Positions 1-23,042 of a DNA stretch of 64,000 nt are shown here, in pieces. Below the pieces are notes generated by a model. That model saw only the letters and a program-made list of their open reading frames with translations, was not told the origin of the DNA and searched no databases. The stretch covers positions 22,833 to 86,832 of the forward strand of contig JAYMGJ010000382.1 of the NCBI GenBank assembly GCA_037178675.1, written 5' to 3'. Both the position numbers and the translations under genes were made by a program. How positions within the stretch are numbered: the first letter of the stretch is position 1; each line of letters begins with the position of its first letter. Source of the stretch: Scleroderma bovista (lineage: Eukaryota > Basidiomycota > Agaricomycetes > Boletales > Sclerodermataceae).

Positions 1-1309
1 AAAGGTACACAATCTATGCAGCCCATTGGAAAGCAAGGGATGCTGTTTCCATGGCTGGCCCTGCAACAAGAAAGGGACACCAAAGATATGGCCCAATGCA
101 AAGCACAGGACACACTATCTCTCTGGCCCATTGACAGAAACAGGACACCAACACCACAGCCCAATTCAAAGCATGGGACACTGGTACAGAGGCCCTTCTA
201 TTGACTCCCGTCCATGGTTAGCCACATTGCAGCACTTACTACTGTCTTTTTGCCGAAATGCTGTGGCAGCTCCCTGCAACCCTCGGCCTGAATGTAGTGG
301 CTACCCTGCAGCATATAGTCCTCTAGCCACATGCCACAGCTCCCTTGCCACATTATGTCCTATTGCCACAGGCCATATCCTGATCTAGTGTACCAGTGTA
401 TCAGCCCACCAATATTGCTTGGTGACAACCTCTCCATGAGCCACCAATATGGCACAGTGAAACACCTTACCATTAGCCCACTTGTATGACATGGGGATGC
501 ACCATAGCTGGGCCCTATCTCAGCTGGCCATGTAGCACGGCCAATTGTCAGCTTCGTCTGTCCGTGTTGTATGGGACAATGCAGGTGCATTATGTGACTC
601 ATAATCGTGTCAGTCGAGTTGGAGAGCCCAGATGGCGGTGGAATACTGCGCGTGCACCTTCGAGGCGCGAATTGGCATGCAGGCAGCACAAACAGCGCTG
701 GACATGGAGTGGATGGGTCGACAGGCGAGACGGATGAGTCAAAAGGCTGGACGGACACTCTGGGTGTGTTGAACAGCGCTGGAACGGCTGGTATGAGTGA
801 TGGTGAGGGTGCAGACACGTACCTGAGCATTAGGGATGTGAAACACGTCGTAAATGCGACGGATGGTGTTGGGAGCTGGACGGACGCGTCAACTGGGCCC
901 ACGGAGGTGCCAAGCGTCGAAACAGATGCAGTAACACCTGCAAACGCGACCCAGATCATCAGTATACCACGAAAAGAGTCAAAAAGGCCAAACTCACCTG
1001 AGGAGACTGCAAGACGGTGCTCAGACAAGCCAGACCGCTGCAGGAGCCGCACGGATGGGTCGAGCACAGCATTGGAAACACGACAGAAATGGCTAGAAAC
1101 GAAGCAGAACATGTTAGAACGTGCACAGAAGAGTCAGAGTCGCAAGGCTCACCTAACGGGCACGATATCGCGACGCCTGAGCTTCCTGGACGATGGAGAA
1201 AGGTTAGCATAGGTGACGGAGATGTGTACGTACCGTGGAACGCGCCGATCAAGGCCCCAAGTCAAAACTTCGTCTTTGGACGACCCGAGAGCGGAGATGA
1301 GGCGATTGC
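1..1309. other. Unassigned sequence left of the inverted LTR arm
   Basis: No recognisable gene. Open frames of 200-250 codons exist on both strands, but their translations are low in complexity and resemble no family I know. From about 550 onward the composition and the recurring GAGTCAAAA-type words resemble the internal part of the LTR element that follows, so this is probably more of the same element interior. The inverted copy on the right stops before this part. Confidence 0.4.
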
Positions 1310-2109
1310 ACCAATCGTTGAGGGTGAAAGGGCTGGCAACGGCGATGGTGGTGGATACGGAGAGGTTGGCGATGTGAACGGCACAACTAGCGGTGGCGAC
1401 GTCGACTCGAAACGAGTCAAAACCGCACTGCTGGCTACAGGGTGTCAGCATATGCACCAGAGTCGAAGAATGCGGAAGAACGACTTACCAGTGTCGTCAC
1501 GGCCACCCATCCAACTCGCAAACCGTCCGTATGGACTCATCAGGCGTCGATGGCAACGTGAAAGGCTCAAGATCGAGCGAATAAACGTCAGCCAAATGAA
1601 GCAAGTTGAAATGACTTACCTAGAGCGCACCAGCGCGACGCAGTCACCCGGAAACGCCCCAAACCAAGCCTATAGAGTCATTGGACTCAGGCGTTGACGC
1701 AGAAGGATCAAGATCGAACCTAGAAATGTCAGTCGCGCGCTGGAAGTCGAGACGACTCACCTTGGACGTGTTAACACGATCCGGTCAAATTGGAGACCTA
1801 AAAAGCGAAGTAGAAGGATAAATAAACTTACCTTCAAATATAGGATGCCGGGGGAGCATTGGCATGACAACGAAGACCACGGATGAGAGATCCGTGCGTG
1901 CTGCAATCAGCAGAGGCATATGAGGCACGACACAACTTACCAAATCGGGTAACAACACAGAAGTCACACAGTCAACAAACCTTCGCATTCAGATGTCTCA
2001 AATTCTATTCGAATCGGACACATACATTGGGAACAACATTTTATTGGATATAGCTAAGTACTACTTTACTATATTTTCTTTCCATCACACCACTTCGTTT
2101 ATGGGGGAG
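1310..2109 (+). mobile_element. Internal end of an LTR element, left inverted arm
   Basis: This stretch matches, as reverse complement, the sequence at about 10,609-11,412, with scattered substitutions and small indels. It ends in a purine run (ATGGGGGAG, 2101-2109) directly before the LTR, which is what a polypurine tract for plus-strand priming looks like. The opposite strand carries several GGTAAGT-like splice donors. No gag, integrase, reverse transcriptase or RNase H motif was found, so the element looks non-autonomous or decayed. Confidence 0.55.
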
Positions 2110-2395
2110 TGTTGGAGATAAACAGAGTTGTTGTGGTATATTTTGCCTACTTACATAAGCATGCATCGCACTAGAGTAGAGTTCTATTACCATAGTCCCT
2201 CAGTAGCTTGCCAGACTACTGAGGGTAAGTACCACTGACTATCTTGTCTATTCCTTACTGATACCTTGTAGTTACCCTACAGGTATATCTAATATATCAG
2301 TAGCTTGCCAGACTACTGAGGTTACCCTACAGGTCTCCTCCTTTTCCCTTCTTTCAGGCTAGACCTTCCCTGTGCAGACCACCACCTTTCTATAC
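2110..2395 (+). mobile_element. Copia-like LTR, left copy (3' LTR orientation)
   Basis: It begins TGTTGGAGAT, a start typical of Ty1/copia LTRs, right after the purine tract, and runs about 286 bp to TTTCTATAC. An inverted copy at 10,325-10,608 shares both edges. A short motif, CAGTAGCTTGCCAGACTACTG, of which the first 20 bases recur, occurs twice inside it. The right edge does not end in a clear CA, so the exact 3' border is uncertain. No 5-bp target duplication can be tested, because the partner LTR lies outside the window. Confidence 0.6.
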
Positions 2396-3239
2396 TTTGA
2401 ACACCTGCAGGACTGAATGGTCAGGGATTCCTGCCAAAGGTCATCAATATCTAATATGGTGGTGGGGACACGATTGCTTTGTCCTGGTGACACGCTGGCC
2501 TCAGCTGTCGGGCAACATAAGTGCATTGGTTACATTGGGGTGCTACTATTATACTAGTACGGGCGCTGGGCGGAGCGTCACTTTAGAGGCGAGGCTGAAA
2601 TTCTGTCAGCGGCTTGAGGTCTTTGAGGACCTGCAGAATTAACAACTACTCAGTACTTGACGGCCCTCCAAAATGATCAGGTTCATCCACTCACTACCCT
2701 AAAGACTGGCATTTATACAAACTAACAGCAGGAAAAGTGGACTCCAGTAATACTAGGTCAGGAACTACTCAGCCAAATTTCCTTTTTAGACCACTGTCAA
2801 GTGTCAATGAACCCTTGCATACCATCATAACTAACCTCACCCACACCACCCGATGAATGACTTATACAATGCTTTGACTCTGCAAAACCAGCCGGTTTGG
2901 TTGCAATTGTACTGCTATTTTTCCATTGTAAAGTGACTTTACAGGACTTTATAATTTGAACCAGCCTGCGGCCTCAAGGCGTCAGGATTCAGGGCATGAC
3001 ATAATGCCTGGGTGCATGGCCAGTTATTGGGCATGCGCTGCCCAGTGCCCATGTGTTTCCCTTATCCAACTCTCCCTCCTTACCTGCTCGTTGCTGCTCA
3101 TCGCCCAGCAATCTTGGTTAGCATCGATGAGCCCCCATGGGTGACAAGCCCTTTCAAAGTTGTACTGACATCGGTCTATTATCACCTCTTCCATAGATAG
3201 TCTATTCCTACTCCTTCCAACGCGCTGACCAGAAATCTC
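2396..3239. other. Unassigned spacer between LTR and cyclin fragment
   Basis: I see no coding sequence I can name. A weak 81-codon frame begins at 2397 but has no family resemblance. The last 250 bases could hold the decayed 5' part of the cyclin fragment that follows. Confidence 0.3.
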
Positions 3240-3745
3240 AATCAGCAGTGTCTGTTTTGCGGCAACCTGACCCCTTCTACGGCCATGAGCCCATATTGCG
3301 CCTATGCGCCAAATTCGTCACCCACCTCTTTGCCTGCCTGGAGTTGCCCCCATCCTCTTCTGGCTTGACAGTGAAGCTGCCTTATTTTATTGCATACTCC
3401 CTCCATTGTACAAAGCTACACTCATCGATCATGTTTGCAGCCCTTGTCCTCCTTCAAAGACTGAAGGCGTGATTTCCCACTGCATGGGAACCATCGGACC
3501 ACCATCTCTTCATATCCGCATTCATGTTGGCCAGCAAGGTCATCCGCCATGATGCCTATTCAAACAAATTGTGGTTGATCGTCATGCAGGGGATGTTCCA
3601 GCTGAGGGAGATCACCCAGATGGAGAAAGAGATGTGCCAGTATTTGAAGTGGGGATTGAACGTTGATCCAGCGACGTTGGAGGAATTCAAGGAGCAAGGA
3701 GATGGTGTGCAAGGATTTTGTGAACCCTGACCCTTATCCTACTCA
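3240..3745 (+). pseudogene. Fragment of a PCL/PHO80-type cyclin gene
   Basis: Conceptual translation, moving between frames, gives blocks typical of fungal Pcl cyclins, which bind the Pho85 kinase: LCAKFVTHLFACLELPP, YFIAYSLHCTKLHSS, FMLASKVI-like text, then QGMFQLREITQMEKEMCQYL and LNVDPATLEEF. These are the cyclin-box helices in order. At least three frame changes and in-frame stops separate the blocks, so it cannot encode a working protein. Downstream text (DFVNPDPYPTHS) fits the end of the cyclin box, after which a minisatellite takes over. Family assignment rests on remembered conserved blocks. Confidence 0.6.
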
Positions 3746-3791
3746 TTCTTTCATCAGTGAAGAAGTCATCCCCTCCCGCTCGTCGCATTTG

Positions 3792-4065
3792 GGTCTGGGG
3801 GATTCTTTTTCTCAATGCCGGTGTGTGGGTGCGCTTGCACCCCTCCCACTCCTCTTGTTGGGTTCTGGGAGATTGTTTTGCTTGACGCCGGTGTGTGAGT
3901 GTGCTTGCACCCCTCCTGCCTGTCTTATTTGGTTCTGGGGGATTGTTTTACTTCGCACTGGTGTGTGGGTGCACTTGCACCCCTCCCTCCTGTCTTATTG
4001 GGTTCTGGGGGATTGTTTTACTTCGTGCTGGTGTGTGGGTGCACTTGTGCCCCTCCCTCTGCTAT
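3792..4065 (+). repeat. 70-bp minisatellite, four units
   Basis: Units start near 3792, 3861, 3931 and 4001. Each begins GGTTCTGGGGGATTGTTTT and contains GGTGTGTGGGTGCACTTGCA followed by a C-rich run. Units three and four are almost identical and the outer ones more diverged. Frames open across the array only because the unit lacks stops in some frames. Confidence 0.85.
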
Positions 4066-5139
4066 GCCATTCTCCCCCACTTGTGGCCTCACCCCATCGC
4101 GAGCTGGAGTCCTGCCATTCAGCGCTCGGGTGCAAAGAGTGGACAGGTGACAGGTTTGTATATACATTTTCCATAGAGACTAGGTTCAAGTTATCAAGGT
4201 ATCAGACATGCTGACTGTGTTGCCACCATCAACCCTTCAAAGTATGGTTTTGTTCAGTCCCTGTCACACTCCCAGGGCATCTAAGTCGGCAACCTCATCT
4301 ACGGGCTTTTTGCGCAAGTATCTGCACAGTTCGCTTCTTCATGGATACTGATGAGGAACAGGCCACTGCTTGCTGTTGACCCAAGCTCCCCCGTGCTGCC
4401 CCTTGTAAAATCAAACCCATCCTCCAGATCAGCACTCCCACACGCACGCTCGGCCAAATGCCTTGTGGGCACTTGTTTGCTATCGGCGTCAAACGAGCAA
4501 TAGTATCCCTCCCCATCTATGTGCCCCACTGCCCTCATTCGGTTTGCTGCCAGAAACTCCCTCGTCCATGTACTCTACATCACCCCCCTGCCTCCTCTGT
4601 GTCACCCCCCACACCAATCAGCATTGAGGACCTTTTGGCCAAGATCGGTTCAGCTTCCTCATCGCTGGTGTACACGAAGTTTGGATTGGGTCGAGGCTGG
4701 TTTGCAGGTTTTTGGGCAGGGCTACTGCATGCTCAATGTGTTGATTCACCACAAGGTATGCATTTATTGTTGTTTCATATTCAGTAGGTTTATGCATCTA
4801 TTCTATAGAATTTGAACTACCTCCATCTTGATTACAACATGAATTTGAAGCCTGTCAAGACCCTCACAATGAAAGAGTGGAAAAAGATGATTTTTGGAAA
4901 TGCATTTCACTGTTGAAGCAATACCTATATACGTAGAGGAACTGTTACTCCAACTCACCTGTTGGGTGGAGTGCACAACCAGAGATGGTAGCAGTAGCTG
5001 GTCAAGAGCTGTTCTATTATATAAGCGATGAACGCTGTTTATATACAACAAATAGTGTGACGTGTGACTGTGATGCATGATGTGTGACATGTAACATCTA
5101 CTCTAGAGAGGACTATTACTAAGTCTACACTAATATGGG
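4066..5139. other. Unassigned interval before the PRP8 fragment
   Basis: No gene recognised. Frames of about 100 codons at 4458-4787 and 4803-5090 have no family signature. The sequence could be decayed 3' flank of the cyclin fragment or 5' flank of the PRP8 fragment. Confidence 0.3.
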
Positions 5140-6394
5140 TTGCAGTCTTGTGCGCACTTCATCGACGGTTTACGCCGGGTGCATGTGCGACTTCAACATT
5201 CACCTGTGCCACAAAATTTTGCATCTTACCAAGCTTGTCATGGAAATGTTGATGCATTCCAACTCGCTGATGCATTGCAATATATCTTTGGTCATATCGG
5301 TGCTTTGACTGGTATGTACCGGTACAAGTACAAGGTTAGTTTATTGTTCTTGTGACTGCCTTCTCAGTTCACATGACTTGCAGCTGATGAGACAAATTCT
5401 CATGACGAAGGATCTAAAACACCTGATCTACTATTGTTTCAATACTGGTCCAGTTGGCAAGGGCCCTGGTTGTGGCTTCTGGGCACCTGGATAGTGCGTT
5501 TGGCTGTTCTTTATGCCTGGCATTGTTCCCCTTCTTGAGCACTGGTTGGGTGACCTCCTTGCTCGACAATTTGAAGGGTGCAACAGTAAAGGTATCACCA
5601 AAATGGTTATGAAGCAGTGCGTGGAGTCGCACTATGACCTTGAACTTCGCGCAGCTGTCATGCACGACATTTTGGACATGATGCCAGAGTCCATCAAGCA
5701 AAACAAGGCAAAGATGATCCTGCAACATCATCCTGTGATATGTGAAGAACAAGGCAGATTGGTGGGTCAGTGCTGCCCATTATAACTGGGAGTGTATTCG
5801 GCACGGTGCCACTGTTGACAAGGCAGTCGTGAAGAAGAACTTGGGCCGTCTCACCCGTAAGTAAAATGTGATTTTCTGCATAGCCCTATTTTGAATGTAT
5901 TATTTAGGTCTTTACTTGAAAGCTGAACAATAGGGGCAGCACGGCTATCTCAAAAATGGAATGTGCATCAGCACCGTTACTGTCCACTGGCTTGAAAGCT
6001 GAAAGTTTGCACCTATCCCATTCCCTTAACTAGTCCTTTTCTTATCATCTTGGAAGACCGCTGTCATACAAGCACGACACCAAACTGCAAGCAAACCCAC
6101 ACAAATGTAAGCTTCAGTCCTTTATCTGGTTTATATATTCGTTTAGGTTTGTCACATACCAAGCGTCTGCTCTTGACCGAGCGTGCATTCAAGGAGGCTG
6201 ATATCAAGATTTTTGGTACCTATGACCAACTCATTCCTTGTTATGATATTGAACCTGTGGAGAAGATTACTGATGCAGTCAGTTTATTTGTATTTTGCTC
6301 TGTACTTTCCCCACTCATGACTTGTTTACAGTACCTCAACCAGTTCCTGTTCTTCAAGGCCAACAAGCAAGTTCATTTTCATTTTGGCAGGGCA
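5140..6394 (+). pseudogene. PRP8: Internally deleted fragment of PRP8 (U5 snRNP splicing factor)
   Basis: Translation matches one stretch of PRP8, the spliceosome core protein, with very high conservation: [116 protein letters not shown] and EPVEKITDA. A normal intron is visible after YRYK. Damage includes a stop after CGFWAPG, loss of the block between ILQHH and the ADWW region, a TAG in the conserved LKAEQ-RQHGYLK segment, and gaps before LLLTERAFKE. The gene is about 2,300 residues in other eukaryotes, so this is roughly a tenth of it. It stops in the middle of a conserved block exactly where the 2.1-kb element begins. The functional PRP8 must lie elsewhere. Confidence 0.85.
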
Positions 6395-8495
6395 GTGTGA
6401 GTCAAAGTGTGGATTTGGGTTGGAGTAATAACCCAAACACAACACCAACAAAGGACTACAAAAATGTGCGAGTGGTGGTTTACCTCCACGGTGTCCAGAG
6501 AGGATATGCTGAGGAGGGGGAAAGGGGATCTACACCAACAGGGTGATGCAGACAGTGATGCAGGATACTCCTGGGGTACAGGAGTAATAGAAGACGAAGG
6601 GGATAGGGGTCTGGACTCTTCCTAAAGCCTAGGAAGTGTCAAAGCGGGGGTTGGGTTGACTGGGACTGAAACAGCAATACTACACCTAGAGGTTGGTGCA
6701 GCAAAGGGGCAAGGGGGCTCCTGATGTCTAGAAGAAATGGGATATGAAGGATAGACAGGCTAGACTCCGCTTGAGCCTAGAGAAATACTTGGACTTGAAT
6801 AGATTGAATAAAACTTGAATATCAGAGTCTTTAGACCTTCACTGAAGCCTACAAGACTCAAAGAGCTGAGGGGATACTGACTGAGAGAGTCTGAGAGAGG
6901 GATAATTTCGTGCAATTTTGGGTCTCTTTTCACTGGGCTGAGCCCAGGGGTTTAAATACATGGGGGGGCACAGCATTAAAGTACAAAAAGAGAAGGGAGT
7001 AAGCAGAATTTGTCAAGGATTGATAAGGGATTGGTAAGAGCTTTGTAAGGGGTTTGTAAGCGACCAGTAAGCAAGGGATAAGCAGGAATGAGTAAGCATA
7101 GGGAGCATGAATAAGCTGCTGAGTAAAGGAATGAGTAAGCTGCATGACAAGATTGATTGGTAAAGGAGTGAGTCATCAGCTGAGTAATATACCAAAAATG
7201 CGAAAGGGATAGAGTAATACTGATGACAAGAGAGCATCAGTAAGCAAGGGATGAGTCACTGCACAGCAGAAGGAGTCATTGATGCACAGCCTAAGAAGTT
7301 TGATGGGGGGCTGTGTACCATCAGGAATTTGATGGGACAACAATGGGGAAGATCTGAGATAAACAGGGGGATTGATCTGAGACAAAACAGCCACAAGAAG
7401 GGTACCAGGGGTCCAGAGGTCTTTTGGGGGGTCAGCATACACTAAGGTATAGTGCATGTGTTCTAGCACCACTGAAGCGCAACCATGGGCTCCCTTGACG
7501 AGCTCTCTTCTGGGAAAGAACAAGAGAGGGTTCTTCTTCCTAATAGCACTATAAAGTGGGGGCATAACTGTCATGGTGCTGGGGGACGTCGTCTGAAAGT
7601 AGGGAAGCAGATAGAGTATTGAATTCAATGCATCCAGGGAAGCGAGATGAACGACAGAGGAAGATGGACATGGCAAGTATCTGGGAGGAAGAGACCATAG
7701 GCTGAGGGCTCAGGGGACACAGAGACGACCAGAGAAGACTTCTCAAGCTTGACAATAGACCTAAGATGATTAAAGTACGTCCTTGACGCAGGACTGACGA
7801 GGAGAATGTGCTGACCAAGAATGAGAGGGACTGAGGGAGCAGGCTGGGAAGATATGTGCCAGGCAGTGCACGGGAACTCTGGGAGAGGCTGTCCTAAGAG
7901 CAGGACATAGTGGAGATCTGCAGCAATAGCGGAGAAATGATCCAGAGAAAATACGGACTCCATAGTGAGCGATGAAGCAAATGTCTGGATTGTGGGGGGA
8001 ATATCTCTGTGGGAAATGAACGGATTTGCATCGGAACTTGACAGGCAGATAGACCAAGTTCTAGGCTCTCTGACAGTATAGTCACGTGCCTGATAGCTTT
8101 AGAAACGATGGAGCTATTCAAAATATCGGAATGCTGGCACTGGGCACCTAAAAATGACATTTGGGGGCTAAAAATCATTTCTTCTCTTTCTCCTTTGTTT
8201 CTCCATCAATTCTTCAGCTTCTTTGATCATTCTGGTATGGGAGTTGGACTGCAGACGTGTGCATTCCTTTCTCATACCACAATTGACATTATTCCTTCAG
8301 TTTCTTCTGCTTCTTGGCGGTTCTCGTGTGATAGATGACTGTCTGCATTGGCATTCATCTCTCGCATCAGGATAGTCTTCTTGTGCAATAGATGGCTATG
8401 ATGAGGGTCCATCGTGCTTATCCTTCGCATAAGGATCATTCAATATAGGCATTATCTTCCATGTTCACTGTACCAAACCTGTTTGGTGCGTGACA
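6395..8495. mobile_element. 2.1-kb repeated element, copy 1 (LTR-like TGT...ACA ends)
   Basis: This sequence recurs in the same orientation at 19,831-21,921, with only scattered differences along about 2.1 kb. Both copies start GTGTGAGTCAAAG and end TGCRTGACA, so the shared unit can be read as TGT...ACA, the end pattern of LTRs. Flanking bases do not form a target duplication in this copy (GGCAG left, GCGGG right). Inside are a GTAAGC-rich stretch near 7010-7260 and open frames on the minus strand with no family I recognise. It may be a long solo LTR or a non-autonomous element. Its insertion broke the PRP8 fragment. Confidence 0.7.
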
Positions 8496-8645
8496 GCGGG
8501 CCATGTCTTTGTCAGCAGGGCATCGGATGACAGCAGTTGACGTACCTCATCTGCCCCTCATCTGCCCATGCATGTCATAGCGTAGTCAGTCATATAAAGC
8601 CTTTCATCCCATTTCATTGCAAGTCCCCCACCACAATCAACTGTC

Positions 8646-10324
8646 ATGGGACTCAATACACTGTGGAAGGCGAGTAAATTTTTCTTGTTCACCTTGGATT
8701 GATTGGACTAATGGCTCACTGTGAATAGGTTCTTGCATCCATGGCAAAGCCTTGTACGATCTACGAGATGGCCATTCAAAGTTTCAAGCCATCTGGGAAT
8801 GAAGCAGGCGGTCGATTGCTAGCTGTTGGATTCAATGCTAGGTGAGTACCTGAATGCCAATGTGCTGTCCATTTCATTGCTCACAAAGCAACAACTAGTG
8901 CATGGATCTCCTCATTGACCAATGTATTTACATGGAGCGGTGCTGGTACAGGAAGAACACATGAAATGCCAATTATTTTCTTCTGGCTTTCAGAAATCTC
9001 AACAATGCCCATCCATCCTCATTTCATTTTCGATGGACTTGACTGCCCATGGTTCAAAGGAGGAAACAAGTGTACTTATGGGACTGGACCACCCCTCCTG
9101 GTGTGCCACTTCCAAGAACTTCTAAGCACATTCAGCTTCAGTTGGCACACGGTAAACCTTTTGCGTGGATTAGCTCAGATGCTGATAGAATTACTAGGCT
9201 CCAGGAGAGGCCAAGGCTGAACTCGCCTACTTTCAATTACATGGACTCGTTGATGTCATGGTGACGCCCTTCAATGATGCATTGTTGTTTGGTGCAAGCA
9301 GTGTCATCCAAAGGTGAGTTCAACAAAACATCAACGCTGCCACTGTTGGACTAACACTACCTACTTTCCGTGCTAGTATTATCCTGCCAAAGTGTGCCAA
9401 GTATGAAGGTGTAGAAGTGTATACAGACGATGCATAAAAGATTGCACCCTCCTTGAGCAGGGGTGCCTCCTCCTGATTGTGCTCATGCGTGGTGCCGACT
9501 ATGATGTAAGTCACTGCTTATTGTGGCCTACTGTGCATACTCACAATCTCATCTCACAGAGTGGGCTCCCAGGGTGCACCACAAACATTGCTCGTCAGCT
9601 GACCCAATATGGATTGGGGAGGTCCCTCCTCTCTGCTGCATCAACACTTCCATTCGCCGAATTCATGGCATTTCACGTCAAATGGTGAAAGCAGCTATGT
9701 GAGGTGTTGGAGAGGGACCCCCAAGGTCACCTTGGATGAACATACTACGAACTTGCTCATGTTATCGATGAGGAATGCACCGAGTTCCCAAACCCTGCCA
9801 TCCTCGCGGCATATGTACTACCTCTCACATCCTGGTCAGATGGTGGCCAACCCCTGTATCTGTGGTCACATCTTGCCAGCCCAACCTCATGGCTCTTGCT
9901 GCGTTTAGCTCAGGATACCTGGGTTGGTCAGCAGAGATCATCCAAATGAAACTGACACAACCTCGTGTTGGCGCGGTTATTCATGCCCTCCTGCAGGTAA
10001 GAGTGTTGCATTCACATGTGACATTTATGCTCGTCTTACCGTCCATTCTAGTTACCAGGCAATGTAGATAGCGAGGCACTACAGCATGACCTCCAGGTCA
10101 TGAATTATTGTGGCGGGTCACTTCTGGTGTACAACATTTCTGTGCCAAGTCAGTTGCTCTTTGCCATGCCAACTGATTTGGCGCACTCACCGTCCAATGC
10201 ACATATCTCACCCCTTGACAAGGATGACATCAATGGTGCAGTGTTCTTTGACATGGCAATCCCAGCGATCGTGTTGGAGAGTTCATGGCCTGACTTGGCA
10301 CAAAGTTCTGAGTCAACTGACATG
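8646..10324 (+). pseudogene. GEN1-like XPG/Rad2-family nuclease pseudogene
   Basis: It starts at an ATG giving MGLNTLWK, like the MG-x-x-LW start of Rad2/XPG/GEN1 nucleases, with a TATA-like CATATAAAG about 55 bases upstream. Later blocks include PGEAKAELAYFQLHGLVDV (the XPG internal acidic motif), ALLFGASSVI, GADYD, SGLPGCTTNIARQL (helix-hairpin-helix-like), LPLTSWSDGGQ and ESSWPDLAQ. Plausible introns remain (for example GTGAGTTCAAC at about 9313). Many stops and frame changes interrupt the blocks, and the usual second aspartate after the PGEA motif is asparagine (FNDA). Such nucleases cut branched DNA; this copy cannot. The 3' end is truncated at the right LTR. Similar XPG-like families are expanded in Agaricomycetes. 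Confidence 0.65.
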
Positions 10325-10608
10325 GTATAGAAAGGTGGTGGTCTGCACAGGGAAGGTCTAGCCTGTAGAAGAAGGGAGAAGGAGCTGTAGGGTAACCTCA
10401 GTATGCTGACAAGCTACTGTATATTAGTATGTACCTGTAGGATAACTACAAGGTATCAGTAGGTAGATGTGGTGGTTAGTAGATGGTACTCACCCTCAGT
10501 ATGCTGGCAAGCTACTGAGGGACTATGGTAATAGACTCTACTCTATGTGCGCTTTATGCTTATGTAAGTAAGTAAATAAACCATAATAGTCTGTTTATAA
10601 CTCCAACA
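10325..10608 (-). mobile_element. Copia-like LTR, right inverted copy
   Basis: Reverse complement of the LTR at 2110-2395, with the same TGTTGG start (here at the right edge) and the same TTTCTATAC end. It is preceded on its own strand by the CCCCCATAAA complement of the purine tract. It faces the left copy, so the LTR sides of the two arms point inward at the gene-fragment island. Confidence 0.6.
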
Positions 10609-11412
10609 CTCCCCCATAAACAGAGTGGGGTAATGGATAGAAAGGTATAGTAAAATCTAAAAGATAGTACTTAGCTGGTTCCAATAAAGTGTAGTGGTTC
10701 CAAATGAATGTGTCCATTTGATATCAATAATACTTGAGACTTGTTGATGTGAAGGTTTGGAGTGACTTCCACATCATTACCCGATTTGGTAAGTCATGTC
10801 GTGCCCATATGCCTGCTGATTGCAGCACGCGCAGAGGACTTCATCCGTGGTCTTCGTCATCATGCCAAGGCTCCCCCGGCATCCTGGATTCGAAGGTAAG
10901 CTTATATAACCTTTTCATTCACTTTTTAGGTCTCTGAAATGGCTGCATCGCAATAGCGTGTCCAAGGTGAGTGATTCAGCCGTTTCACGTTTGACTGACG
11001 TTTATAGCTGCGATCTTGATTTGCCCACGTCGATGCCTGGGTCTATAGACCCTATAGGCTCGGTTTGGGGAGTTCCCGGGTGGCTGCATTGTGCTGGTGT
11101 GCTCTAGGTAAGTGGTTTTGCATTCTGGCATTTGGCTGACTCGATTGTCATTTATTCGCTCGATCTTGAGCCTGCCGCATTGCTGTCAACGCCTAACAAG
11201 TCCATATGGACGCTCCACATGTTGGATGGGTGGCCAGGACGACACTGGTAAGTCATTGTTTCATGTTCTTCGGCTTTGATGTGTATGCTGACTTCCTACA
11301 GCCAGCAGTGCTGCTTCGACTCATTTTGAGTCAATGTTGCTGCTGCTAGTCATGCCGTCCACGTCACCAACGTCTCCATATCCACCACATCAGCAATTCA
11401 ACGTGTGTCTGA
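10609..11412 (-). mobile_element. Internal end of an LTR element, right inverted arm
   Basis: It pairs in inverted orientation with about 1310-2109. On the plus strand it reads as short blocks separated by intron-like pieces (GGTAAGTC, GGTGAGTG, TTTATAG, CCTACAG). No retroelement enzyme motif is visible. The match to the left arm ends near 11,412. Confidence 0.5.
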
Positions 11413-11466
11413 ATGTCCTGAATTTTGTCTGAGTGACCTGGGTGCATGATACAGCCTGGGCAATGT

Positions 11467-11530
11467 CTGGGGTCAGATGACACTCTGGGGTCAGATGACA
11501 CTCTGGGGTCAGATGACACTCTGGGGTCAG
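11467..11530 (+). repeat. 18-bp tandem repeat, 3.5 units
   Basis: The unit CTGGGGTCAGATGACACT is repeated exactly three times plus a partial unit. It sits at the edge of the LTR arm and leads into a CAGAC-rich stretch (11,550-11,690) that resembles the larger satellite at 14.65-16.03 kb. Confidence 0.9.
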
Positions 11531-11726
11531 GCCTGTCAGACAGAATTCAAACCCATCTGACAGGCATGATGACAGACATATTTACATATGTGTTCCAGGT
11601 CTTGTTTAGACACTATCAGACCATCCAGACACCATCAGACATTCAGACACACATCAGACCAATCTGACTGACCAGACCATCAATGCAAGATGTGTTTGTG
11701 TTGGCAAAAGATGGACTGTAAGAATG

Positions 11727-14644: not shown

Positions 14645-16030
14645 ATACAGTCAGACCCCTCAAGCAGTAAGTCAGTCAGACACTTAAGACCACCCAGAGC
14701 AGTCAGAGCAGTCAGACCCCCCAAACAGTAAGTCAGTCAGACATTTAAGACCTGTCAGATCAGTCAGAGCAGTCAGACCCCCCAGACAGACAGACAGACA
14801 GACAGACACTCAGACCAGTCAGACTGGTTAGACCCCCCAGGGTGTCAGACTATCAGACACCCCAGATCAGTCAGACCAGTTGGACCCCCCAGACAGTAAG
14901 TCAGTCAGACATTCAAGATTCTGCCAAACATGTCAGACCAGTCAGACTGATCAGACCCACCAGATAGTCAGACCATTCAGACACTCCAGACCAGTCAGAG
15001 TGGTCAGAGTAGTCAGACACCCCAGCATGTCAGACTATCAGAGAATCCAGGCCACTCCAGACCAGTCAGAGCAGTCAGAGTGGTCAGACCGCCCAGACAG
15101 ACAGGCCAGTCAGACACTTCAAGCCACTCCAGACCAGTCAGAGTGGTCAGACTCACCAGACAGCCAGATATTTCAGGCCACTCCAGACCAATCAGAGCAG
15201 TCAGAGCAGTCAGACCCCCCCAGACAGTCAGGCCAGTCAGACACTTTAACCACTCCAGACCAGTCAGATTGGTCAGACCCACCAGACAGTCCAACCAGTC
15301 AGATATTTCAGGCCACTCCAGACCAGTCAGAACAGTCAGAGTGGTCAGACCCTTCAGGTAGTCAGGCCAGTCAGACACTTCAGACTGCTTCAGACCAGTC
15401 AGAGTGGTCAGAGTGGTCAGACCCACCATGCAGTCAGGCCAGTCAGATACTCCAGGCCACTCCAGAGCAGTCAGTGTTGTCAGAGTTATCAGACCTCCTA
15501 GGCAGCCAGACCAGTCAGAGCAATCAAAGCAGTCAGTCCCCACAGACACTCAGAGCAGTCAGACATTTCAGACATCTCCAGATCAGTCAGAGTGGTCAGT
15601 GGTCAGACCCACCAGACAGTCAGGCCAGTCAGACAGTCCAGACAGCTCCAGACTAGTCAAAGTGCTCGGACCAGTCAGACACTTCAGATCATTCCAGATC
15701 AGCCAACCAGTCAGAGTGATCAGACCCCCTCAGGTGTCAGACTGTCAGATAGTCCAGATCAGCCAGAGCAGTCAGAGTGGTCAGACCCCCTCAGACTGTC
15801 AGACTGTCAGACCAGTCAGACACATTAGATCATTCCAGACTGGTCAGAGCAGTCAGACTTTCCAGTTAGTAAGATTGTCAGATAGATAAGACCATTCAGA
15901 GTAACCAGCACAATCAGGCCCCCCATATAATAAGCCACTCAGAAAGTTTAGAACACCCAGACCATCAGACCATCAGACCCCCCAGCCAGTAAGTTAGTCA
16001 GACAGTTAAGACCATTCAGACCATTCAGAA
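14645..16030 (+). repeat. CAGTCAGAC satellite array, left arm of a foldback
   Basis: About 1.4 kb is built from variants of CAGTCAGACC and CAGTCAGAGTGGTCAGAC, with many CCCCC interruptions. One reading frame stays open for 258 codons only because the unit lacks stops; its translation is a run of S, Q, D, P and T. The reverse complement of the same motif forms the array at 17,630-18,355. Confidence 0.9.
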
Positions 16031-16389
16031 AATGTAATTAACAAACAAAACCTAATAGTCAATCATTGTTGTTGTTGCATCTCAAAAACAAGCAATAGTG
16101 TAACAATATATTTATGTAACTAACCTATCATTGTTGGGGGTCCCTGTTGTCATTTGGGCATGGGTCATCATCACCTGGGGGCACAGGTTGACACCATGGT
16201 TGTCATGTCAACAGTGATGCCACTGGGGTGTGGCTAATGGTGTAGGAATTACTGTAGATGAGAAAATTAGGGCTATACAAATGCAGAGGATTGAACAAAG
16301 GATTATGTAATACCTATTCATCCTGCCTATGGACACCACTGAAATTGTCCAGTACAGTAGTAATAATATGTCAATAAAAAAAAGCCATT

Positions 16390-17500
16390 AAAACAAATAA
16401 TGTTTATTGTATCAAGGTGTCGTTGGTGGCCAGTTGACGACACAGGTGGTGGGGTGTCGTCGTCGTCACGTTGGTGGTGGCCATCGTCGTTGTCGACACT
16501 GGCAGTGAGTGTTGTCGTCTCACACTCGCTGTTGCCATCGCCACCTTCATCCTCATCGCACCGTCCTTGTCGCATCGTCCTCGCCGTCCTCATCATGTCG
16601 TCGTCGACAGTTACAATGCTGGGGTTGGCATGGTCACTGTGGTGTTGTCGTTGTTGACGATGACACTGTGGTCATCGTCGTCGCTGCGGGTGCTGCGGGT
16701 GGTCGTCAGTAGTGGCTGGTGGGGTGCGAAGTACTTAGCTTTGTGCAGAGAATGCAGGACTTGGAAAAAAATTGGAGTTGTTGTGATTACAAATCACATC
16801 ACAACAACTCCAAATTTTCTCTACATAAGTCCCGCATCACCATTCTGTCTCCCATTCAACCATGACCACGACGATGATGCGTCGATCACCACCACCCACG
16901 ATGATGACGACAATGACTCACTATCAGGGTACATACCACCACATGCATGCAGTGTCCACCACTAACACACGACCACGACAACCCTGACTGGTCGACGACG
17001 ACAACCCTCATCCGCAGCGTTGTCTGACCAATGACGACGACCCCCCACCCTAGCATTGTCCGACCAACGACAACGACCTCCGGCCCTAGCGTCATCAGAC
17101 AACCACCACCCCCATCCCGTTGTCGTCCAATGACAACGATGCCCACCCTTAGTCGTCTCTAACGGACGACTACTGACCATAACCACCCTTATCCTAACGT
17201 CATCTGACGACAACGACAACCCCACCACCACCAGCGTCAACAACCACAACAACGACCACTGGCCCCAGTGACGACCAGCCCCGGTAACAATGACCAGCCC
17301 CAGCGTGACAACGACATCCCGCACGTCCTCCACCCCCAGCATTCACCACCATGTCGCCCAAAGGCAATGACACGTGTCCCGTGTCCCCCAGCCCCAGCCA
17401 TGACGCCCCCTGTGTCCCCCCAGCATTGTCAACACAGTCATCACCCCAGTGACAATGATGTCACCACTGCCCACACCCACACCAGTGTCAAGATGCCCCC
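16390..17500. repeat. GTC/GAC trinucleotide-rich low-complexity core with central hairpin
   Basis: From 16,400 to about 16,740 the plus strand is rich in GTCGTC and GTGGTGG. From 16,860 to 17,480 it is rich in the complement (GACGACGAC, CCACCACC). Between them an inverted repeat (GGAGTTGTTGTGAT near 16,774 and ATCACAACAACTCC near 16,798) forms a stem with a loop of about 10 bases. Open frames here are by-products of the composition. Confidence 0.75.
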
Positions 17501-17629
17501 CCTCCATTCATATATAATATATATTTGTTGTACTGTAGTTTTTTCGTAATTAATATAAATTTATTAACATGAATATTGAATAAATTAAGTGGCAAAAGGA
17601 TACAGATAGATACAGCTAATGGCCTGGCT

Positions 17630-18355
17630 GGTCTGGCCAATCTTACTAGTCCAATTGGTCTGAGTCTCTGATTTGTCTGGCCAGTCTGACTGATATGACT
17701 TGTCTGAGTGGCCTGACTGGTCTGGCTAGACTTGATTGTCTTAACTGTTTGACCAACTTACTATATGAGGGGTCTGACAGTCTGGGTGATCTGATTGGGC
17801 TGGGTGGTCTGGATGGTCTGGATGGTCTTGACTGGCTGATTGACTTATGGTCTGGGTGGTCTGACAGGTCTGACAGGTCTGGATAGCCTTAACTGGCTGA
17901 CTGACTTATGGTCTGGGTGGTCTGACATGTCTGACATGTCTGGATGGTCTTAGCTGGCTGACTGACTTATAGTCTGGGTGGTCTGACATGTCTGACATGT
18001 CTGGATGGTCTTAACTGGCTGACTGACTTATAGTCTGGGTGGTCCGACAGGTCCGACAGGTCTGGATAGTCTTAACTGTCTGACTGACTTATGGACTGGG
18101 TGGTCTGACTGGTCTAGATGGTCTTAACTGTCTGATTGACTTACTGCCTGGGTGGTCTGACTGGTCTGACTGGTCTGGGGTGGTCTGGACTGTCTGACAG
18201 GCTGACAGGCTGGGTGGTCTGAATGGTCTGGCTGGTCTGATGGACTGCTGGTCTGACTGGTCTGGCCATCTGGTTTCAGACACCCCTGGTCTGATGGTCT
18301 GGAATGGTCTGACTGACTTATCTGACTTATCCATCTTAACTGTCTGATTCCAGAC
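17630..18355 (-). repeat. GTCTGAC satellite array, right arm of the foldback
   Basis: Built from GGTCTGACTGG and CTTAACTGGCTGACTGACTTA variants, the complement of the left array. A longer period of about 60-65 bp (TGGATGGTCTTAACTGGCTG and neighbours) repeats between 17,820 and 18,130. The array ends directly at the left terminus of the Harbinger element. Confidence 0.85.
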
Positions 18356-18556: not shown

Positions 18557-19830
18557 ATGCCTAAAGTACCTAAAAATCATTCTAATACAGTCTCTCCTTC
18601 ACTCTCTGGTCCATTGGACAAGTCCGGGCGCTCCAAAAAGGTAACTACGCAGAAGACAAGTGGAAAACCAACCGAAAAGGGAAAGAAGGATCCACTGCAA
18701 GGAAGCGGCAACAAGAAGCCACGCGTTTTTATCTCGTAGGTCATTTTAAATTAATAGAAGTAGTTCTAATACACTATATTTGCAGTTGGTCAAAGTCCGA
18801 GAACCATTCGGTCACGGATGAACTTCTCACGCTCATCGAAAGCAAGACCCGCTGGAAAGTTGCCCTTGGGTTCGACAAGGGTGCCTTTCCTGATGCGGAA
18901 AGTCAAAATAGCCAGGGCAAGACCCTCCTCGAACATTGTGCAGACATTGCTGCTGCCTTGTTCATCAAGGACAAGCCTGATACGAAGTGGACTCATGATG
19001 ACATCAAGGACCTTCGGGTGGTTGTCAAGAACCGGGTAATGAGGTAAGTGTTTCATCAAATTTACTTGATACTTCTTGAGCCTTTATTAGCTTGAAGAGC
19101 TCATATAATGACTATCGGAGTCAACTTGGGGAGACTGGCCATGGCCTCATTGTGTCAGACAAGGAAGATGAGATTGCTGAAGGCACAGAGATTTCAAATG
19201 TCTATGGTGAGTAGCCTGTTGACTTGGACCTAATTTTCTTGTGTCAATAACTCTTGTAGATAGCATTAAATTAAAGTTTCCATGGTACAAGCGGATGCAT
19301 GCACTCATGGGCACAAGCCCTGTTGTCAGCCGTGCAGCTGTGGTTAACAGTAACTCTGTCCCAGACCTGTCTATTCTTGGTGAGAATGCCAATTGTGATG
19401 AGTCTGGTGAGGAGAATGAGGAGGTATGTATGGCTTTTGTGACTGTATCAGATAATCCTAACATATTGTTGACTCAGAAACTTATTCCTTGGCCCAGTTC
19501 ACCTGCTCGTGACTATGGTCGAGAATCACCTGTGCTTGACAACTCCTCTGATGTGTGTGACTTGTCTCCAATTGCTACTCCAGTGAAGATCAAGATTCCC
19601 ATGGTTTCTTCTTTGGCTTCAAAGCCAACCTCGGTGAGGAAGAAGACTGCTGCTGACCTTGCACGGGAGGTGGCAGATGCAGAGCGCCAGGCACGCCTCC
19701 ATATGACCCATATCAATGCCAAGGAGAGGACTGCTCGTGAACAGATCAAGCAAAAGTCTGCTCGTAAATCTGCTCTTGAACTTGAAGAACTGCATCTTAG
19801 GCATCAACAAGAGGAAGGTGAGCGCCAGCG
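18557..19830 (+). pseudogene. Myb/SANT-like accessory protein of the Harbinger element, 3' truncated
   Basis: The start at 18,557 gives MPKVPKNHSN and a lysine-rich N-terminus. Introns near 18,738-18,785, 19,044-19,090 and 19,207-19,259 restore the frame. The conserved part reads WSKSENHSVTDELLTLIES, LLEHCADIAAALF and WTHDDIKDLRVVVKNRV, then SYNDYRSQLGETGHGL, a trihelix/Myb-like DNA-binding fold used by Harbinger accessory proteins to help the transposase reach DNA and the nucleus. The C-terminus is a charged helix (ADAERQARLHMTHINAKER, LELEELHLRHQQEE). The reading frame runs into the 2.1-kb element at 19,831 and stops 25 bases later, so the native end is missing. Confidence 0.7.
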
Positions 19831-21921
19831 GTGTGAGTCAAAGTGTGGATTTGGGTCGGAGTAATAACCCAAACACAACACCAACAAAGGACTACGAAAA
19901 AGTGCAAGTGGTGGTTTACCTCCGCGGTGTCCAGAGAGGATGTGCTGAGGAGGAGGGAAGGGGATCTACACCAACAGGGTGATGCAGGATACTCCTGGGG
20001 TACAGGAGCAATAGAAGATGAAGGGGATAGGGGTCTGGACTCTTCCTATAGCCTAGGAAGTGTCAAAGCGGGGATTGGATTGACTGAGACTAAAACAGCG
20101 ATACTACACCTAGAGATTGGTGCAGCAGAGGGGCAAGGGGGCTCCTGACGTCCAGAAGCAATGGGATATGAAGGATAGACAGACTAGACTCCGCTTGAGC
20201 CTAGGGAAAGACTTGGACTTGAATGGATTGAATAAAACTTGAATATCAGAGCCTTTAGACCTTCACTGAAGCCTACAAGACTCAAAGAACTGAGGGGATA
20301 GTGACTGAGAGGGACTGAGAGAGGGATAATTTCATGCTATTGGGTCCTTTTTTTCACTGGGCTGAGCCCAGGGGTTTAAATACATGGGGGGGCACAGCAT
20401 TAAAGTACAAAAAGAGAAGGGAGTAAGCAGAATTTGTCAGGGATTGGTAAGGGATTGGTAAGAGCTTTGTAAGGGGTTTGTAAGCGATCAGTAAGCAAGG
20501 GATAAGCAGGAATGAGTAAGCATAGGAAGCATGAATAAGCTGCTGAGTAAAGGAATGAGTAAGCTGCATGACAAGATTGATTGGTAAGGGAGTGAGTCAT
20601 CAGCTGAGTAATATACCAAAAATGCGAAAGGGATAGAGTAATACTGATGACAAGAGAGCATCAGTAAGCAAGGGATGAGTCACTGCACAGCAGAAGGAGT
20701 CATTGATGCACAGCCTAAGAAGTTTGATGGGGGGCTGTGTACCATCAGGAATTTGATGGGACAACAATGGGGAAGATCTGGGATTAATAGGGGGATTGAT
20801 CCAGGACAAAACAGCCACAAGAAGGGTACCAGGGGTCCAGAGGTCTTTTTGGGGGGTCAGCATACACTAAAGTATAGTGCATGTGTTCTAGCGCCGCTGA
20901 AGCGCAACCATGGGCTCCCTTGACAAGCTCTCTTCTGGGAAAGAACGAGAGAGGGTTCTTCTTCCTAATAGCACTATAAAGTGGGGGGAATAACTGTCAT
21001 GGTGCTGGGGGACGTCGTCTGAAAGTAGGGAAGCGGATAGAGTATTGAATTCAACGCATCCAGGGAAGTGAGATGAACGACAGAGGAAGATGGACATGGC
21101 AAGTATCTGGGAGGAAGGGACCATAGGCTGAGGGCTCAGGGGACACAGAGACAACCAGAGAAGACTTCTCAAGCTTGACAATAGACCTAAGATGACCAAA
21201 GTATGTCCTTGACGCAGGACTGACGAGGAGAACGCGCTGACCGAGAACAAGAGGGACTGAGGGAGCAGGCTGGGAAGATATGTGCCAGGCAGTGCACGGG
21301 AACTCTGGGAGAGGCTGTCCTAAGAGCAGGACATAGTGGAGATCTGCAGCAATAGCGGAGAAATGATCCAGAGAAAATACGGACTCTATAGTGAGCGATG
21401 AAGTGAACGTCTGGATTGCGGGGGGAATATCTCCGTGGGAAATGAACGGATTTGCGTCGGAACTTGACAGGCAGATAGACCACGCTCTAGGCTTTCTGAC
21501 AGTATAGTCACGTGCCTGATAGCTTCAGAAACGACGGAGCTATTCAAAATATCGGAATGCCGGCACTGGGCGCCTAAAAATGACATTTGGGCGCTAAAAA
21601 TCATTTCTTCTCTTTCTCCTTCGTTTCTCCATCAATTCTTCGGCTTCTTTGATCGTTCTGGTATGGGAGTTGGACTGCAGATGTGTGCATTCCTTTCTCA
21701 TACCACAATTGATGTTATTCCTTCAGTTTCTTCTGCTTCTTGGCGGTTCTCGTGCGATAGATGACTGTCTGCATTGGCATTCATCTCTCGCATCAGGATA
21801 GTCGTCTTGTGCGATAGATGGCTACGATGAGGGTCCGTCGTGCTTATCCTTCGCATAAGGATCATTCGATATAGGCGTTATCTTCCATGTTCACTGTACC
21901 AAACCTGTTTGGTGCATGACA
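19831..21921. mobile_element. 2.1-kb repeated element, copy 2, nested in Harbinger
   Basis: It has the same orientation and the same edges as copy 1 at 6395-8495, with a length difference of about ten bases. Left flank is CAGCG, right flank CCGAA, so again there is no target duplication. It lies precisely between the truncated 3' ends of the two Harbinger genes, so either insertion was accompanied by deletion of host DNA or it arrived by recombination. The unit shows no recognisable enzyme domain. Confidence 0.75.
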
Positions 21922-23042
21922 CCGAATACGGATTTTGGACACATGATAATTATAGGTGGTGTTTTCTGCAGTCTCTTTTTCTGGCCTATAGATATTAGAC
22001 AGATGAGTGGTTTCAGTGTTGATAACAGGTTCAAAAAAATTACTGACTTTTTATATGGGGCCTGACACCAAGTGTGAAGAGGATAAGCAGTGTCAGCCCA
22101 TATAAATTCACCTTCTTTGAGAAGAATATTATGCTCTTGAGAGATACGAGTGTCCAGAAAGGCTGTGGCATCATGTTGACTGCCAGGCAACCCAACAGAA
22201 TAGTCAACAATCTGTAAGTCTGGTGTTGAGACAATCTGGGAGAGTCAGAATGAATAATTGAACAGCAGAAAAACTGAAAATCATACTTGGACATTCATAG
22301 AGTAGTTAGACTTGCGATCATACCAGGTATTCCCATAAAAACCTGGCCTTGCATGGAGTGGAACCAGGGTACCATCCACCATTGCCCATCCATCCCGCCA
22401 AGCAGGGCATGAATTTTCTTCTACCCATGACTTTGCATGCTCAATAGCAGCTGGATCAGGCCAGTGCAAAGCTGCTCGGCAGAATTCTTCCCCACAAACA
22501 GCCTTCATGACACGATTTGTCACCAGACGTACTGTACCATATCCTACCCCCGCCCACAAAGCAGTCTTCATAACATTAGCTGCATTCCCATAATGCCCAA
22601 AGCGGAAAAGGGCTATAGCAAGCTGCTCTGCTACAGGCATCTGGGGTGAAGTTGACTGATTATGGAAGACAGGGTCAACCCCTAATGCAGCTGTAAGCTG
22701 GTCAAAGCAAGCAGGGGTAACTCGGACATAGCTTTGGAATATATCAGGGTGATTGATTCTCCAGTCACCAAGAAGAAGCTGCAGATTGGCATTGCTCTTG
22801 GGAATTGCAGGCTGCTCTGCAATGTATCGATGGGAATAGAGGGCAATGATGTTCTGCAAGATCACAGATGAAGGGGGGATCTGCTCGATCTCATCATCAG
22901 AGGACTGAGAGCTGGCAGAAGAGGAGTCAGAGTCAGAGTCAGGGCTAGGATCCACCAGATCTTGAGATTCCGTGGAAAGTAAAGCAAGATACACATGCAG
23001 AAGGCTCTGTGCTGCTTGTTGGCGCTCCATTTGTCGAGGCAT
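21922..23042 (-). pseudogene. PIF/Harbinger DDE transposase, 3' truncated
   Basis: It starts with MPRQMERQQAAQSLLHVYLA, has an acidic serine-rich N-terminal stretch, then a helical region (FQSYVRVTPACFDQLTAAL, LAIALFRFGHYGN) and the DDE_Tnp_4-type nuclease core. Candidate catalytic residues are D in MVDGTLVPL and D in GSQHDATAFL; WADTAYPL follows. An intron near 22,258-22,211 joins SMNVQV to IVSTPDLQIVDYSVG, and a second intron after YKK leads to NYHVSKIRIR. There the coding sequence meets the 2.1-kb element; the family normally continues with SEH and the last acidic region. The catalytic domain is therefore incomplete and the copy should be inactive unless complemented. Confidence 0.82.

Follow-up and report, generated by a model that had tools for sequence, protein, structure and literature searches.

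Gene pieces between inverted long terminal repeats in Scleroderma bovista as the probable remnant of a tyrosine-recombinase DNA transposon

Cryptons, as described by Kojima and Jurka (2011, PMC3212892), use a tyrosine recombinase (YR) as mobility enzyme and have terminal direct repeats of 4 or 6 bp, and some carry an extra gene, a C48 peptidase. Starships (PMC12134995) are cargo-carrying YR elements of Pezizomycotina, 15 to about 700 kb long, with short direct repeats and a leading 5′ DUF3435 captain. Here we describe a block of cyclin, PRP8 and GEN1/XPG-like nuclease pieces in a 64,000-nucleotide stretch of the Scleroderma bovista genome (the window, C382:22833-86832; C numbers denote contigs of this genome, which was searched over 51.8 Mb in 850 contigs). 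With a probability of about 0.87, judged from sequence comparison, this block is the dead remnant of a ~9.5 kb YR DNA transposon carrying a nuclease, a cyclin and a captured PRP8 piece, a reading under which three isolated gene fragments would belong to a defined transposon that has ends, a recombinase and cargo. The full-length relative used for reference lies on C277 (16999-26500) and is given in the coordinates of C277r, the reverse complement of C277:16628-27704, where it occupies 1205-10706. The parts of the block assigned to the element are:

2395..10325, + strand: YR element remnant, equivalent to C277r 1501-7078; colinear match, 87-97% piecewise, to C277, C420 and C145
3476..3727, + strand: cyclin gene piece with the Cyclin_N exon, whose protein is 88% identical to that of the C277 exon
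4679..6371, + strand: captured PRP8 fragment (PROCN region), split by a solo long terminal repeat (LTR); its DNA is 81-90% identical to the PRP8 gene on C239
8496..10325, + strand: GEN1/XPG-like nuclease gene region, broken by stops; 95-96% to C277, C420 and C145

The initial annotation had recognized these as fragments of three host genes, and all three are indeed present by Pfam, Protein Data Bank (PDB) and profile matches. The C277 copy of the cyclin matches Cyclin_N (E 4.7e-7) and PF08613 (E 3.8e-4) in Pfam, with no match of the exon to PDB at E ≤ 0.01; the C277 PRP8 copy matches PROCN (E 8.8e-37) and PRP8 in PDB (E 1e-40); and a profile of named nuclease relatives matches GEN1 (5cnq, E 1e-32). 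The window nuclease is interrupted by two TGA stops in one matched stretch and by one TGA and two TAA in another. What did not stand is the view of nuclease and cyclin as trapped host genes, since both look like genes of the mobile element itself (see below).

The expectation that the whole block should recur with shared ends was borne out: copies in C277 and C420, and from the cyclin exon on in C145, have the cyclin, PRP8 piece and nuclease in one order, at 87-97% identity piecewise, and copies that reach the ends share them while differing in their flanks. In the full-length C277 copy all genes lie on one strand in the order CTAAGT, cyclin, PRP8 piece, GEN1/XPG-like nuclease, YR, CTAAGT, the terminal repeats occupying C277r 1205-1210 and 10701-10706. 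Over 6.3 kb, C277 and C420 share 99.4% identity, yet they diverge just beyond both ends. On the left, homology starts at C277r 1204-1207 in C277, C420, C682, C756 and C244; on the right, all 13 copies (C277 and 12 fetched copies whose match reached the end) stop at one point, with CTAAGT in 12, CTAAGA in C134, and 13 different flanks. Matches on C655, C73 and C84 stop ~20 bp before this point, and still others end deeper within the element. Nuclease and PRP8 pieces also occur together in more distant copies (C134, C105, C850, C689, C330, C573, C517, C84 and C73), which match at 67-88% over the nuclease region, and in a tree of 14 nuclease regions the window groups with C145, C277 and C420 (support 100/100). 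A short inverted match, AAAACAGCA, was seen near both ends of the C277 copy, and no longer one.

One target could be read directly. The right flank of the C222 YR element lies within a member of the 288 bp LTR family, agreeing with the window copy at 64 of 76 bases, and because copies of that family carry CTAAGT at the exact place where the C222 element ends, the C222 target, on this comparison, held a CTAAGT core before insertion. Separately, the C277 left flank ends in TTTCTCGAACTAAGT, which resembles the right end of a further such element in head-to-tail arrangement, with one CTAAGT common to both; this observation rests on ~15 bases (C277r ~1190-1210).

The recombinase was identified by a Cre-like fold in a relative (fold comparison) and by an H-x-x-R catalytic motif in C277; a YR profile found nothing among PDB sequences at E ≤ 1. 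As in Cryptons, the host is a fungus, the YR is the only mobility enzyme found and the terminal direct repeats are 4-6 bp long (CTAAGT at both C277 ends); the Pfam scan of the C277 element, covering 27 frames of at least 100 residues (two of them in part), gave no other transposase, no reverse transcriptase and, at E ≤ 0.01, no helicase. The present element differs from Cryptons in being ~9.5 kb long with a cyclin, an XPG-like nuclease and captured PRP8, and in that its YR relatives score under the Pfam cut-offs where these are given. The GCR1_C domain of CryptonF had no Pfam match in the C-terminal C277 frame (E ≤ 5) or among the families listed for 53 YR relatives (E ≤ 0.01). With Starships it has in common cargo, a YR and short direct repeats, although similarity to DUF3435 is weak and confined to few relatives (2 of 53 at E ≤ 0.01), its YR is the last gene and not a leading 5′ captain, and its 9.5 kb compare with 15 to about 700 kb. 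Its closest named nuclease and YR relatives, among the matches listed, are from Scleroderma and Pisolithus, thus from Boletales basidiomycetes and not Pezizomycotina. Seven of 19 named nuclease relatives lie on contigs equal in length to that of a YR relative among the 120 of 169 YR matches listed, which hints at linkage of the two genes.

Genes for PIN-like proteins are abundant in mushrooms generally. The nuclease resembles GEN1/XPG nucleases, including the 'PIN domain-like' proteins of Scleroderma and Pisolithus, in its XPG_I region and GEN1 profile match, but differs in being a multi-copy neighbour of a YR in this genome and in an acidic motif of the I region that looks altered from the usual one (TPYND in the family consensus).

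Linkage was counted across the genome after merging nuclease and YR matches into 33 and 41 loci; all 76 cyclin matches, merged to 59 loci, were used for the cyclin. A YR lies downstream on the same strand within 5 kb at 29 of the 33 nuclease loci (at 557-773 bp in 25 of these), those without one being C302, the window, C647 and C73; the C302 locus has a 1157-residue frame at 35% identity and is possibly a host gene. Conversely, 29 of 41 YR loci have a nuclease, and 17 of 41 are preceded, on the same strand and no more than 9 kb away, by a cyclin, the other arrangements numbering 0, 2 and 0 and random placement expecting 0.21. PRP8 was found within 9 kb at eight of 41 (84-residue query). Distant YRs (34-39% identity; C207, C251, C346, C541, C552 and C744) keep nuclease and cyclin, and no PRP8 match was found at these six loci; nuclease and cyclin therefore look like standard genes of the YR element family, and PRP8 like a later capture. 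At C580:73331-77157 and C177:53293-57427, YR and cyclin lie on the same strand, 3.2-3.6 kb apart, with no nuclease detected, possibly a nuclease-free version of the element.

The search for a parental PRP8 gene led to C239, whose gene, judged from the 3.5 kb of it that was read, is the likely parent. The proposal that capture took place at the DNA and not the RNA level held: capture was at the DNA level, because the PRP8 pieces align with the C239 gene along its DNA and not as a spliced message. In coordinates of the C239 stretch (reverse complement, position 1 at its edge), C277 holds 1219-2874, and C330 and C517 hold 1 to ~838 plus ~2730-2880. The PRP8-nuclease junction has nearly the same position in the window, C277, C330, C517 and C573, which suggests a single capture followed by deletions and duplications. 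On C850, C105, C73 and C84, PRP8 bits occur more than once or depart from the order of the C239 gene, as if rearranged again and again.

These copies also bear on the possibility that an ancestral host cluster of cyclin, PRP8 and GEN1 was spread by segmental duplication. The gene order, fixed in copies down to 67% identity, agrees with such a history, but the sharp common ends in differing flanks, the linked YR with its Cre fold and the C239 contig, which has no nuclease or YR match beside its PRP8 locus, make it very unlikely.

Several observations weigh against the YR transposon reading. Neither element end lies within the window; the C145 and C566 copies are without the left end; and left cores vary, with CTAAGT in C277 and C682 beside CTACGT, TTAAGT and GAAAGT. 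The YR scores in Pfam, where given, fall under curated cut-offs, as noted above, and the C277 YR exon has an in-frame stop. Because of this stop and those in the window nuclease, we do not claim from these sequences that the full-length C277 relative, or any other copy read, is active. No nuclease was detected within 5 kb at 12 of 41 YR loci, and no cyclin within 9 kb at 24 of 41, so that gene content either varies or was missed.

The LTR arms that flank the gene pieces, together with the later insertions into the block, comprise:

596..2109, + strand: 3′ part of the left LTR retroelement body, ending in the polypurine tract TATGGGGGAG
2110..2394, + strand: left arm, read as the 3′ LTR of an LTR retroelement inserted in the YR element; 285 bp, many genomic copies
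4911..5198, + strand: solo LTR inside the PRP8 piece; 288 bp, target site duplication TTCAC read from the flanks, absent from C277
6396..8495, no strand assigned: high-copy repeat of 2.1 kb, bounded by TG...CA, that separates the PRP8 piece from the nuclease; not present in C277 or C145
10326..10608, − strand: right arm, the 3′ LTR of a second LTR element in opposite orientation; 83.7% identical to the left arm
10609..11388, − strand: part of the right LTR element body; as far as 11379 it matches the C365 copy at 80.7%

The initial annotation had taken the arms as the bounds of one unit, either a composite retroelement that captured the genes or a rearrangement that trapped them between inverted retroelement copies. 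The arms do face each other and match over ~1 kb. However, a polypurine tract sits directly on the outer side of each, followed by ~760-780 bp of homologous element body; each arm is thus the 3′ LTR of an element that extends outwards, away from the block, and the two do not bound one element. On the left, window 938-2394 matches a complete copy at C365:34390-38156 (77-78%) and window 596-735 a relative on C60 (79%); the LTRs of the C365 copy are 99.3% identical, and the target duplication ATCTT stands on both sides.

The other half of the left element was found at C756:6989-7273, a 5′ LTR 100% identical to the left arm and adjoining the leftward continuation of the block (C277r 1206-1504, 91% identity). 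The two target halves are CTTCA (C756) and CTTTG (window), and the uninterrupted site in C277 and C420 is CTTCG; because the two differences are both CpG transition products of this one site, the left arm is, by this comparison, a secondary insertion into the block, with one copy of its 5 bp target duplication on C756 and the other in the window. The two body parts of the left element end near corresponding points (window ~596), and their split over two contigs could reflect a nested insertion or a break in the assembly. At the position of the right arm, C277, C420 and C145 read on into CATGGAACTAG. A search for the missing right junction (the LTR 5′ end beside CATGGAACTAG, up to three mismatches allowed) gave no match, so insertion of the right arm is unproven; on alignment, this arm is the point (10325/10326) where the YR third of the element is gone.

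Among the matches listed, no copy has the block between two arms. The same pieces were found in the same order without arms in C277, C420 and, from the cyclin exon on, C145 of this genome, the kind of result that had been named beforehand as refuting that reading, and in C277 and C420 element homology runs on beyond the positions of both arms. The target site, moreover, refutes capture or bounding by the left arm. A mobile element did carry the genes, as the initial annotation had supposed, but the LTR arms were not its carrier, and capture or trapping by them is very unlikely. Nor is a rearrangement between inverted copies needed, though something removed the element's right third.

Two other kinds of mobile element are also very unlikely. 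A YR retrotransposon of DIRS or Ngaro type would account for the recombinase, and many Agaricomycetes are reported to have inherited Ngaro 4 (PMC3783388), but the absence of a reverse transcriptase match from the C277 frames and the termini of 6 bp direct repeats speak against one. Helitrons are well known for carrying several gene pieces with introns, but this is the least credible of the alternatives, as the ends are CTAAGT direct repeats and not 5′ TC and 3′ CTRR, and a YR stands at the end in place of a Rep-helicase, no helicase having been found in the scan described above.

For the YR transposon, we propose that the recombinase would exchange strands at the 6 bp CTAAGT core and excise the element, probably in circular form as has been proposed for Cryptons (PMC3212892), and that the element would then be placed at another CTAAGT-like site. 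Nuclease and cyclin would be accessory genes, for which their families suggest, as guesses, junction or flap processing and timing, respectively. More tentatively, and with somewhat more doubt than confidence, these may be a separate YR element lineage of Boletales that has as standard equipment its own junction or flap nuclease, which would resolve excision or integration, and its own cyclin, which would tie it to the host cell cycle; many Scleroderma and Pisolithus 'PIN domain-like' genes would then be transposon genes. If true, such a YR element, with its GEN1-like nuclease and its cyclin, would provide for itself both the processing of DNA junctions and the control of the cell cycle. It would also represent a lasting capture, outside Starships, of part of an essential splicing gene. 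The element also offers an explanation for the repeated XPG-like gene family in ectomycorrhizal fungi. In the literature within reach of our search, which left out preprints and most subscription papers and gave sources in part, no YR element with an XPG nuclease or a cyclin was described.

In the window lineage, the solo LTR, the 2.1 kb repeat and the LTR retroelement would have inserted, CpG sites decayed and the YR third been lost at the second LTR element, not necessarily in this order. The pieces do lie side by side as in the initial annotation, but the block is split by the 288 bp solo LTR and the 2.1 kb repeat. CpG decay is expected of methylated transposons. Where C277 and C145 agree, the window has 163 changes of its own, of which 144 are C>T or G>A (122 of these in CpG) and five are transversions, and the ratio of observed to expected CpG, which is 1.08 at the C239 locus and 0.81 in C277, falls to 0.41 in the window block. 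Because the window's own changes are mostly CpG transitions and CpG is depleted, these copies probably parted recently, the window copy then suffering CpG decay.

The 2.1 kb repeat has at least 34 other copies of at least 1.9 kb (91-96% identity), and a second copy in the window lies at ~19828-21924. The flanks of the repeat are consistent with a target duplication of 4 bp whose central CpG decayed differently on each side; among 15 complete copies, two have identical 4 bp flanks and none identical 5 bp flanks. An Rfam scan of the window gave no match at gathering scores. Window 3789-4059, in the cyclin part, holds about four units of a 70 bp tandem repeat that is also present in C277, C420, C145, C566 and C244. 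To the right of the right LTR element, arrays of TCAGAC-like and GGTCTGAC-like units occupy window 11466-11661 and 14648-18264, starting where the right LTR body breaks off.
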